DNA of 64,000 bases. Source: Gammaproteobacteria bacterium (GTDB lineage Bacteria; Pseudomonadota; Gammaproteobacteria; HK1). Under the pieces are notes generated by a model. It was not told the origin of the DNA. It made no database searches and saw only the letters and a program-made list of their open reading frames with translations. A program made the position numbers and the translations under genes. This document shows, piece after piece, positions 24,753 to 27,873 of this stretch; the stretch's first letter is position 1; each line of letters starts with the position of its first letter. The DNA is taken from assembly GCA_021773635.1 (NCBI GenBank), contig JAJFJV010000017.1:186001-250000 (forward strand). Reading direction: 5' to 3'.

Positions 24753-24925
24753 ACTCTGATTCCTGCAAGGACATGCTTGCGTAGCGCTTGACCCGGCGTT
24801 TGTCGATAGGCACCCAAGCCTGAGGAGGGAGCAGCGAAAATGACTGTTTAACAGCACCCAGCCACGAGCAGAACTGCTAGGTAATAACTGTCACCGTATA
24901 TTTGGAGTCTGACCAAACTGTATTG

Positions 24926-25495
24926 CTATGCTCTTTTTGCAGGAATAAGGACTGCTCCTATTTTCCCAAATATATCTTCAAACCTACCGGTTTTATGACC
25001 AAAATATAGAAATACTTGACCTCTTGTATTTCCTGAAACATGCTTACCATCGTCTGTTTCAAACGCAATACGGCGATCAGGAAAACAAATCACATCAGAA
25101 AACCTTAGAAGCGAGTGAAACCACCGTGTTTCAGTAGCATTATTAACTAATACAATCCCTTGGGCGATTGATTGATTTGCAAGATTTGCAAGAAACACAT
25201 CAATCGCTGCATCTATGATTTTCCTACCATATGGCGGATTCATAAATACCCTGCCTTGATCTTGAAACCATTGCTGCTTAAATGCATCAGCTTTAATGTC
25301 AAAATACCTTTTGGCTTTGACATGCTCATTTGCAGCACGAGATGAAAATGGATCAAGATCAATATCACCCATCACTTCTCTTGCCATATCTGTATACATA
25401 CTAGGCGTAAACCACGAATCTGAATCTCGTACTTTCCCCCTGCCATCACCAGGCTTCGACCCAATATATGCAAGCTTATTTTTATCTGCCTTCAT
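24926..25495 (-). CDS. DNA N6-adenine methyltransferase, phage Dam type
   Basis: A 189-residue methyltransferase of the phage N6-adenine type. The family pattern is clear: DSWFTPSMYTDMAREVMGDI, then DLDPFSSRAANEHVKAKRYF, and the catalytic motif IV NPPY in GRVFMNPPYGRKI (near residue 91). ATG 25495 (MKADKNKLAYIG) is chosen over an upstream TTG. The gene is clearly AT-rich compared with its neighbours, pointing to transfer. It follows a PD-(D/E)XK nuclease gene by 37 bp on the same strand, so the two may form a small restriction-modification pair. The target sequence cannot be read from the protein. Confidence 0.88.
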   Translation of the reverse strand: MKADKNKLAYIGSKPGDGRGKVRDSDSWFTPSMYTDMAREVMGDIDLDPFSSRAANEHVKAKRYFDIKADAFKQQWFQDQGRVFMNPPYGRKIIDAAIDVFLANLANQSIAQGIVLVNNATETRWFHSLLRFSDVICFPDRRIAFETDDGKHVSGNTRGQVFLYFGHKTGRFEDIFGKIGAVLIPAKRA

Positions 25496-25532
25496 TCCAA
25501 CCACCAAAATCTTCAGTTATTTCACATACAAT

Positions 25533-26027
25533 TCATCTGAATGTATTGTTTGCCCATGTCATAAATTCAGTGGCATTCATTACACGGATATTTTTCTGGG
25601 ATTTTTCTTCCGGGATATATAGACGATTTCTTACAGCATTACGGAGCCATTCTATTGCGCCAGCTCTAAAACCATCACCATCTATCAAAATAATTACATC
25701 ATCCTCAGGAATTGCATCAACTGCACTTAAATATAGATGCGGTAATTTTTCATCTACACTACCGGCGCTCTGCTGCCACTTACATTCAATACGAACTTCC
25801 AGCCCATATCTCTCAGACTTAAGTAGAAATTCAGTTTTACCTTTTGACCCATATAACGTTGTATATGGAGCGTTCTTTATAAGAATTTCTGATCTCTCTG
25901 TCAAAGGAATCTTTTCTAGGTCTCTGTTCTGAACAACATGAAAACCATGAGGAGTAAGTGCACCTATAACAATACCTTCAAGAACACTTCCAGATCTATT
26001 GGCCAGCCCACCCTGAGAAATAACCAT
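25533..26027 (-). CDS. PD-(D/E)XK-type nuclease, likely restriction enzyme partner
   Basis: A 164-residue protein starting MVISQGGLANRSGSVLEGIV. The core beta-alpha pattern GKTEFLLKSERYGLEVRIECKW carries ECK, which fits the (D/E)xK half of a PD-(D/E)XK active site. QQSAGSVDEKLPHLYLSAVD and DDVIILIDGDGF follow, a pattern I associate with small predicted restriction nucleases. It lies immediately upstream of the phage-type adenine methyltransferase on the same strand and shares its AT-rich composition, so the pair was probably acquired together. Restriction activity is inferred from fold and context. Confidence 0.72.
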   Translation of the reverse strand: MVISQGGLANRSGSVLEGIVIGALTPHGFHVVQNRDLEKIPLTERSEILIKNAPYTTLYGSKGKTEFLLKSERYGLEVRIECKWQQSAGSVDEKLPHLYLSAVDAIPEDDVIILIDGDGFRAGAIEWLRNAVRNRLYIPEEKSQKNIRVMNATEFMTWANNTFR

Positions 26028-26542
26028 AATGGATTCTAACTCTTATTTTTCATAAATATCTTGCTCTAAAACCACCATTCTCTACCACATTCTATAGGGG
26101 CCCATTTTCTGGAAAGTAGGGCGGGATGCAGGCAGCAAAGCAGCGGCTGCGATGAATAGTTGCTAGCGCCCGTGAAAACGATGCCGAATTTCCGTTCCAG
26201 TCACCGGGAACTTCCCGAGCCTTTCGCTCTCCCCGCTTCTTGCTCATATTAGTGTCTCCATGACAATGGGCATTCCGCCTCCTGCGCACTTTCAAAATAG
26301 GCTGCCTCAGCTCATCTGAAACGTGGCTCCCCATCCAGACGAAAAACCTAAACCCTAAATCGTTGTGTTTCAAGGGGTTTGTCGTGACTGGAACTCGGCC
26401 CTTCAAGAATTCCTTTAGCCCAAATGTGGCTAAGGAGAGTCTTCAGCCAGCACTTATTAAGGGGGCGCCTGGCAAAGCCCAGGGGCACCGTTAAGCTGAC
26501 GAGCGAAAATTGCACTGCCTTTGTTCCCTGGATTACCCGTTG
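26028..26542. other. 515-bp gap with hairpins, no convincing gene
   Basis: There is no coding frame I would support. The gap holds two hairpins, CCTTTAGCC/GGCTAAGG near 26411-26434 and GCGCCTGG/CCAGGGGC near 26465-26485, followed by the REP-like palindrome at 26512-26559. An open minus-strand frame at 26406-26092 has no recognisable protein features. The region looks like the scarred end of an acquired segment. Confidence 0.5.
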
Positions 26543-26559
26543 TCACGGGTAATGACGTA
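26512..26559 (+). repeat. Palindromic REP-like repeat
   Basis: tgcactgcctttgttccctg is followed by gattacccg-ttgt-cacgggtaatgacg, giving the stem TTACCCG/CGGGTAA. It has the same leader sequence as the copies at 5618 and 43465 but a different stem. Confidence 0.7.
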
Positions 26560-27184
26560 GCTTTGCCCCTGCACGCCAGCTAATGATGAAGTAGTTGTAT
26601 TCCTGCTCCCCGCCAGCGGGTGTCACATGCACATCAGTGAGTGAGTCAAGCACTACCAGGTCCTCTCCCAGTACGCCCTGCATTTTTTCCTTATCGTAAC
26701 GCTCCACCGGCAGTCCGCTGCAAGACTTCGGCCCGTTCAGGGAGAAGGTGCCAATTATGGCGTGACCCTCTGGAGCGAGATGTTGCTTGAGTACCGCCAC
26801 ATATTTTTGCTGATCTTCTTCGTCGGTTAGAAAATGAAATACCGCGCGGTCATGCCAGATATCAAATGACTGCCCGAGCACGAGCCGGGTAACATCATCC
26901 GCCCGGTAATCGGGGATATCACCGTGCGCTCCCAGGCGATCACGCACAATGGACAGCGCTTTTTGTGAAAGATCAACGAGCGTAATTTTCCGAAAACCCC
27001 GCTCAATTAGCCGATCCACCAACCCGGAGGCGCCGCATCCAATCTCAATGACTGATTGCTCGGGCGAAATCCCGACCTGGTCCAGCAATCTGAGCGAGAT
27101 CTCGGGAGATACCTGATACCACCCGACTTCCCGATGGTCCCTGCTTTGATAAATATTTTCCCAGTGCTGCTCACGCTGAGTCAT
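26543..27184 (-). CDS. Class I SAM-dependent methyltransferase
   Basis: A 213-residue Rossmann-fold methyltransferase. Motif I is SVIEIGCGASGLVDRLIERG (near residues 44-63), the acidic residue after beta-2 is in ITLVDLSQKAL, and YRADDVTRL and FDIWHDRAVFHFL complete the pattern. The N-terminal HWENIYQSRDHREVGWYQ is typical of small-molecule thiol, tellurite or selenium-type methyltransferases of unknown substrate. It is a single gene with no clear operon partner, between the REP-like repeat and vapBC. The substrate is unknown. Confidence 0.88.
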   Translation of the reverse strand: MTQREQHWENIYQSRDHREVGWYQVSPEISLRLLDQVGISPEQSVIEIGCGASGLVDRLIERGFRKITLVDLSQKALSIVRDRLGAHGDIPDYRADDVTRLVLGQSFDIWHDRAVFHFLTDEEDQQKYVAVLKQHLAPEGHAIIGTFSLNGPKSCSGLPVERYDKEKMQGVLGEDLVVLDSLTDVHVTPAGGEQEYNYFIISWRAGAKLRHYP

Positions 27185-27227: not shown

Positions 27228-27602
27228 CTATATCCGATAGGGCACACGAACACCGGGGTGATCCGCCGGGAAATCACGGGTATTCCGGCTCACCAATAGA
27301 CATGAGCGGGTCGTGGCAGTTGCCCAGATAATGGCATCGGGCAAGCGGAGCCGCTCTCCCCGCCTCAGCTGCACGGCTTTTTCAGCAATATCCGGATTCA
27401 GGGAGATGAGTGTAAATCGCTCCAAAAAGCCTCTAAGCAGGCCCTCTTCACGCTCATTCTTGGCGCCTACCAACACTTCCATCCAACTGATAATACTTAT
27501 CTCAGGCTCATCATATCGGGCAATCTCGAGGCGTGCTGCCTCAACACCGTTCAGATAATCGATGAGGATATTGGTATCGAACAGCGCCTTCACGGCGACC
27601 AT
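27228..27602 (-). CDS. vapC: VapC-type PIN-domain toxin
   Basis: A 124-residue PIN-domain ribonuclease. The acidic active-site residues are in the N-terminal ALFDTNILIDYLNG (Asp near 9), in the central Glu of ISIISWMEVLVGAK (near 43), and in RLRLPDAIIWATA (Asp near 92). It is the toxin half of a type II pair. Its ATG lies inside the 3' end of the antitoxin gene (13-bp overlap), the usual vapBC organisation with translational coupling. It is likely to cleave a specific tRNA or rRNA site, as known VapC proteins do. Confidence 0.93.
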   Translation of the reverse strand: MVAVKALFDTNILIDYLNGVEAARLEIARYDEPEISIISWMEVLVGAKNEREEGLLRGFLERFTLISLNPDIAEKAVQLRRGERLRLPDAIIWATATTRSCLLVSRNTRDFPADHPGVRVPYRI

Positions 27603-27811
27603 TCATCACGCAAATCATCTTCATAACTCAAGGCATCCTGCCCACGGTCCTGCCAAAGCGCGAAAGCTTCATCGCCATCCGGCTGGCGGTGCCTGCGCAA
27701 TAAATCTCTGACGGCTCGCCGAATCGCCTCGGCGCGGGAGATATGCTCCCGGCCACAGAGTTCTTTTAATTGTTGGAGATCCTGCTCAGGAATTTCAATG
27801 ATAGTACGCAT
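27590..27811 (-). CDS. vapB: Ribbon-helix-helix antitoxin for VapC
   Basis: A 73-residue protein from ATG 27811 (MRTIIEIPEQDLQQL). The first 45 residues form a ribbon-helix-helix fold: a short beta strand (TIIEIPE), then REHISRAEAIRRAVRDLL. This is a CopG-type DNA-binding antitoxin. The acidic C-terminus (LSYEDDLRDEWSP) should wrap and neutralise the toxin. It is upstream of vapC and overlaps it. The symbol vapB is used functionally; the RHH class differs from AbrB-type VapB. Confidence 0.85.
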   Translation of the reverse strand: MRTIIEIPEQDLQQLKELCGREHISRAEAIRRAVRDLLRRHRQPDGDEAFALWQDRGQDALSYEDDLRDEWSP

Positions 27812-27873
27812 GGCGGCATCATACGACGTCATCAGATGCGTATCAAACCACGGGACTATTTTATCGAGGAGAA

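Follow-up and report, generated by a model that had tools for sequence, protein, structure and literature searches.

A small PDDEXK_11 nuclease gene joined to a phage-type Dam methyltransferase gene: a putative two-gene restriction-modification system, most likely acting at GATC

In a 64,000-nucleotide stretch of a gammaproteobacterial genome (contig JAJFJV010000017.1, positions 186,001 to 250,000; hereafter the window) we describe a pair of adjacent genes that is likely, judging from sequence comparison and structure prediction, to form a type II-like restriction-modification system of only ~1.1 kb, most likely directed at GATC, in which the methyltransferase (MTase) has probably been exchanged. 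The novelty lies in the combination: a PDDEXK_11 nuclease that normally occurs with other kinds of MTase is here accompanied by a phage-type one, and size and gene order differ as well. From these data we infer cleavage, methylation, the GATC site and a role in defence against phage DNA. If this reading is correct, the pair would represent an unusually small two-gene restriction-modification system, and one in which the nuclease retains its role within the pair although unrelated MTases have taken over the protective one. Phage Dam genes, which are generally interpreted as orphans with an anti-restriction role, would then in some cases be one half of a complete restriction system on a phage, a setting in which such systems have been reported to be rare (PMC4176335).

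The two genes and their AT-rich island

The first gene of the pair (25533..26027, minus strand, 164 codons) encodes a PD-(D/E)XK nuclease of the family PDDEXK_11 (PF20472), as indicated by Pfam, an AlphaFold model, and its relatives. The Pfam match spans profile positions 2-145 of 145 with an E-value of 7.6e-43 and a score of 146.2 bits (gathering cut-off 23.7). In the AlphaFold model (mean pLDDT 90.5, pTM 0.85), a helix at residues 5-27, strands at 47-56, 62-71, and 76-84, a helix at 90-105, and a strand at 110-116 make up a PD-(D/E)XK core. The ECK active-site pattern described in an earlier note on this DNA corresponds to E81-C82-K83 (codons at 25779..25787, minus strand), the (D/E)xK motif on strand 76-84, with E81 and K83 invariant in a 17-row alignment; the first acidic active-site residue, E66 (25830..25832, minus strand), is nearly invariant, with D in several relatives, and lies on strand 62-71. 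Structure prediction, which that note had proposed as a check, therefore came out in its favour, since the confident model places E66, E81, and K83 on adjacent strands of the core with the active site intact, the arrangement that characterizes the superfamily. Further conserved features of the nuclease are E17 and a Q-x3-GSVDEK motif. Structural neighbours found with VIA-align include the restriction enzymes BstEII (Z 10.0) and EcoT38I (Z 7.8), which are middling scores, and Can2/Cdn1-type nucleases score at similar Z, so that the fold by itself does not settle function. Foldseek searches with the models of the window proteins gave no strong match, a sequence search of the PDB returned no relative of either protein, PADLOC and NCBIfam named no system for the nuclease, and our literature search found no publication naming PDDEXK_11. 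A second PDDEXK_11 hit in the window genome (L183:2073-2465 on G000:C28, minus strand; E 2e-18) was considered as a partner and rejected, being distant and on another contig; it lies near parA/parB on a contig of 10.6 kb, and no MTase was found beside it.

The second gene (24926..25495, minus strand) encodes an adenine-N6 DNA MTase of PF05869, the phage T1-type Dam family, according to Pfam, PHROGs, and the predicted structure. Its open reading frame comprises 189 codons from an ATG, or 193 if a TTG farther upstream (25507) is taken as the start. The protein matches PF05869 with an E-value of 4.2e-17 and 62.8 bits (gathering cut-off 28.1) and phrog_111 with an E-value of 9.5e-33; it scores 48.7 bits against TIGR01712, the NCBIfam equivalog for phage N-6-adenine-methyltransferases, which is under the curated cut-off of 97.05 and marks it as a divergent member. 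The NPPY catalytic motif (motif IV, residues 86-89, 25229..25240, minus strand), which had been recognized earlier as that of the phage Dam group, is intact, with N86, P87, and P88 invariant and Y89 nearly so across 16 relatives. The predicted structure (pLDDT 85.3) has a Rossmann-type MTase fold and weakly resembles RlmJ and others. Among viral homologs, the MTase is 49% identical to that of L080 and 39% identical to that of L084.

Both genes are intact and are separated by 37 bp (25496-25532); the list of open reading frames and the GC profile agree with the adjacency, the sizes of 164 and 189 codons, the gap, and the AT-richness that had first drawn attention to the locus. No specificity or translocase subunit is encoded among the open reading frames neighbouring the pair, so that it has the form of a type II system, with adjacent, co-directional nuclease and MTase genes. 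The window genome has a GC content of 58%, and the pair sits in an island of 38% GC (0.382 in the block 25001-26000, against ~0.58 around it). We delimit an AT-rich insertion carrying both genes at 24766..26573, with no strand assigned, based on this GC value and on flanks that are 82% identical in the sister genome G015. The flanking genes, one for a DEAD-box helicase and one for a SAM-methyltransferase, are both conserved in a sister genome; in G015 the flanks, at ~82% identity, enclose ~0.5 kb of unrelated DNA and no pair, while in the sister genome G016 they fall on separate contigs. No PDDEXK_11 match was found in the sister genomes of the window host. Low GC and a variable insertion site thus point to horizontal acquisition of the pair from outside, and we regard it as a genuine, probably functional restriction-modification pair acquired in this way. 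A promoter scan returned sites that were rarer than in shuffled sequence. Other elements lie close by: a ~48 bp repeat at 26510-26557 has ~25 more copies in the window genome and its sisters, and the segment 26119-26375 recurs at 72% identity elsewhere on its contig (G000:C9:282678-282935), with related copies in both sisters. At 27228-27832 on the minus strand there is a VapBC-type toxin-antitoxin-like pair (PIN-like and ribbon-helix-helix-like), judged by eye only.

Relatives of the pair and exchange of the methyltransferase

A search across 84,980 species genomes yielded 17 relatives of the window nuclease at 34-62% identity, spread over many phyla, and their neighbours were typed from the adjoining open reading frames using Pfam and home-made HMMs. 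Nearly all 17 have an adenine MTase gene directly upstream of the nuclease. This partner belongs to the D12 family (PF02086) in most cases and to the N6_N4 family (PF01555) in Brocadia, Zixiibacteria, and one spirochaete; the nuclease of L015 has no MTase partner, and the L018 locus is cut by a contig end. The sole plasmid match, from Alicyclobacillus, has a D12 partner, and more distant nuclease relatives in bacterial genomes likewise have D12 or N6_N4 partners. Because an MTase adjoins nearly all relatives, the nuclease appears to be the restriction-enzyme half of a two-gene family, from whose bacterial members the window differs in both partner class and gene order. In bacterial genomes, PF05869 genes are mostly solitary, and no other bacterial PF05869-PDDEXK_11 pairing was found in two Pseudomonadota genome samples (369 and 398 genomes, partly overlapping). 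At one of the bacterial loci (L008:4101-4886), an EcoO109I-type restriction endonuclease gene (PF14511, E 1.5e-86) lies directly upstream of a D12 and PDDEXK_11 pair.

On viral contigs, an alignment-based scan recovered 46 nuclease loci, and a second scan with the MTase as query recovered 80 MTase loci, whereas scans with single sequences gave no matches; no close DNA or protein relative of the nuclease was found in cultured phages. Nine distinct viral contigs (L076; L080, which equals L105; L081; L082; L083; L084, which equals L134; L099, with its near-copy L100; L110; and L142) have a PF05869 gene directly next to a PDDEXK_11 gene on the same strand, and both gene orders occur. The nuclease half is confirmed by Pfam on every one of these contigs, and the MTase half on L076, L080, L082, L083, and L084; the MTase halves of L081, L099, L110, and L142 were identified by a home-made HMM only. 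Seven of the nine nucleases retain all of the D/E..ExK residues; in L081 the K is replaced by R, and L099 lacks the E of ExK. Full-length family matches, conserved active-site residues, and recurrence on nine contigs together place the pairing far beyond chance. The two-gene linkage that the earlier note had suggested looking for in other genomes is thus found on viral contigs, where the two genes are in every case neighbours on a single strand, but it is not the usual arrangement of the nuclease family, which mostly has MTases of other families, and it was seen in no other sampled bacterium. Nor is it usual for the MTase: 6 of the 80 viral MTase loci have the nuclease, and most viral PF05869 genes lack this partner. 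Eight PDDEXK_11 nucleases on phage contigs (L044, L046, L047, L049, L055, L062, L064, and L066) have no adjoining MTase and form one clade, and several of these MTase-less phage nucleases sit between a ThyX or UDG-like/3'-5' exonuclease gene and a DNA polymerase A gene. Small open reading frames just downstream of two other PF05869 MTases (L114:3549-4016 and L116:3473-4036) appear by eye to encode other PD-(D/E)XK nucleases and have no Pfam match.

A maximum-likelihood tree built from 64 nucleases places that of the window with those of L004 and L025 (support 93/94; the group includes one long-branch row), both of which are D12-linked, suggesting that its MTase was probably exchanged. The tree requires at least 13 switches of partner class, compared with a possible minimum of 3 and a mean of 28 after shuffling, and this number of swaps is approximate given weak deep branches in both trees. 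The window MTase belongs to a well-supported group of 13 PF05869 sequences, five of which are nuclease-linked. By these phylogenies, the window pair looks like a nuclease of a D12-linked lineage that has been joined to a phage-type PF05869 MTase.

Target site and competing explanations

Four separate lines of evidence suggest GATC as the likely site. The MTases beside the two nearest nucleases give full-length matches to E. coli Dam (E about 1e-91), the partners in Bacteroidota have DpnM as best match (5e-52), and the N6_N4 partner shares 56-59% identity with second MTases from plasmid systems of the DpnII type, that of pSRQ700 among them; LlaDCHI is listed as a GATC isoschizomer (PMC4190342). 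For the phage-type class, M.Phi93DAM has been found to methylate GATC by SMRT sequencing and DpnI/DpnII digestion (PMC4190342); we find that it belongs to PF05869 (E 6e-34) and is a distant homolog of the window MTase (26%, E 4e-10). The nuclease profile resembles the catalytic part of DpnII to a degree that varies with the alignment used (hhalign 76% and pairwise E 2.3e-5 with alignment A5; 3.8% and 0.011 with the narrower A1), and in the A5 register E falls on E and DGxG on DGxG. The presence of GATC enzymes in all three partner classes and the weak likeness to DpnII make a miniature type II system with GATC as its site the best reading, and three unrelated partner classes with GATC members are most simply understood if the site of the nuclease is fixed at GATC. 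The earlier note's proposal of an unusual, very short restriction-modification system is supported as regards the small nuclease-MTase pair, but we see in it a variant of the known GATC-type systems, not a new system.

We propose that the nuclease would be a compact DpnII-like PD-(D/E)XK enzyme lacking the N-terminal half of DpnII and would cut unmethylated incoming DNA, most likely at GATC, while the phage-type Dam would place m6A on the same site and so protect the cell's own DNA. The PF05869 enzyme would have taken the place of the Dam/DpnM-type D12 or N6_N4 partner usual for this nuclease lineage. The host and two sisters carry an E. coli Dam-like D12 enzyme of their own, and GATC may therefore already be methylated in these cells; if so, the genome would have been protected before the pair arrived, replacement of the MTase would have been easy, and restriction would be limited to DNA from Dam-negative sources. 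A broader generalization is plausible but falls somewhat short of a favoured conclusion: PDDEXK_11 may be a minimal GATC endonuclease family whose fixed site permits swaps among D12, N6_N4, and PF05869 partners, with phages carrying the PF05869 version as a complete ~1.1 kb system and Dam-positive hosts tolerating swaps because their DNA is already protected.

The host's own Dam also opens another interpretation, namely that the nuclease relies on this housekeeping enzyme and that the PF05869 gene, instead of encoding the cognate MTase, is a chance neighbour or the decaying remnant of a phage. The solitary habit of PF05869 genes in bacteria and the lone genes among the closest viral relatives of the window MTase are in keeping with it, but two intact, co-directional genes of equally low GC only 37 bp apart, from families that are adjacent in either order on nine other contigs, are hard to reconcile with a chance neighbour or remnant, and we consider this interpretation improbable. 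A somewhat stronger case, though still an unlikely one, can be made for a real restriction-modification pair whose site, set by a co-adapted new MTase, is something other than plain GATC, such as a longer GATC-containing motif, GANTC, or an unrelated one. Other motifs are possible in these MTase families, among proteins of solved structure the N6_N4 partner is closest in sequence to the GANTC enzyme CcrM, and a phage restriction-modification enzyme recognizing RGATCY, R.Nph3I, is known (PMC10734518). There is likewise no GATC avoidance specific to the window genome, in samples of which GATC occurs at 0.79 of expectation; the identical ratio in a sister without the pair makes avoidance uninformative. 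What speaks for GATC itself is that each of the three unrelated partner classes belongs to a family in which GATC enzymes are known. Finally, it is very improbable that the nuclease is a phage-derived replication or recombination nuclease with an MTase beside it by chance: the phage clade in which the nuclease occurs without an MTase, between replication genes such as those for ThyX and DNA polymerase A, offers a precedent, but the window nuclease lies outside that clade, among MTase-linked nucleases, and its bacterial relatives adjoin MTases.

Relation to known systems

The preferred reading, a two-gene system acting at GATC, places the pair closest to the DpnII/LlaDCHI-type (MboI-like) systems, in which one or more adenine MTases and a PD-(D/E)XK nuclease likewise share one operon; the D12 and N6_N4 partners of PDDEXK_11 are related to DpnM and to the second MTase of these systems, respectively, and the nuclease profile may be remotely similar to DpnII in its catalytic half, to an extent that depends on the alignment. 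The window nuclease differs in having 164 residues in place of 285-304, in lacking the N-terminal half, and in giving no match to PF04556, the DpnII endonuclease family (one phage relative reaches E 0.0027, below the cut-off), and the pair differs in its PF05869 MTase and in having the nuclease gene first. With the PDDEXK_11 and D12 pairs of L004 (a Chromatiales MAG) and L025 (in genome G148), it shares the nuclease family, at 62% identity to L004, and an adjoining MTase, but their partner is an E. coli Dam-like D12 enzyme encoded upstream, whereas that of the window is a PF05869 enzyme encoded downstream. Orphan phage Dam enzymes of PF05869, such as the GATC enzyme M.Phi93DAM, have the same MTase family and NPPY motif (PMC4190342) and usually no nuclease partner, in contrast to the adjoining one found here. 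Virus-borne pairings of a nuclease with an MTase at GATC are also described for PBCV-1 (M.CviAI and A579L) and Marseillevirus (R.Mis1I; PMC7248222, PMC10734518), which we liken to the window pair by description and which belong to viruses of eukaryotes.
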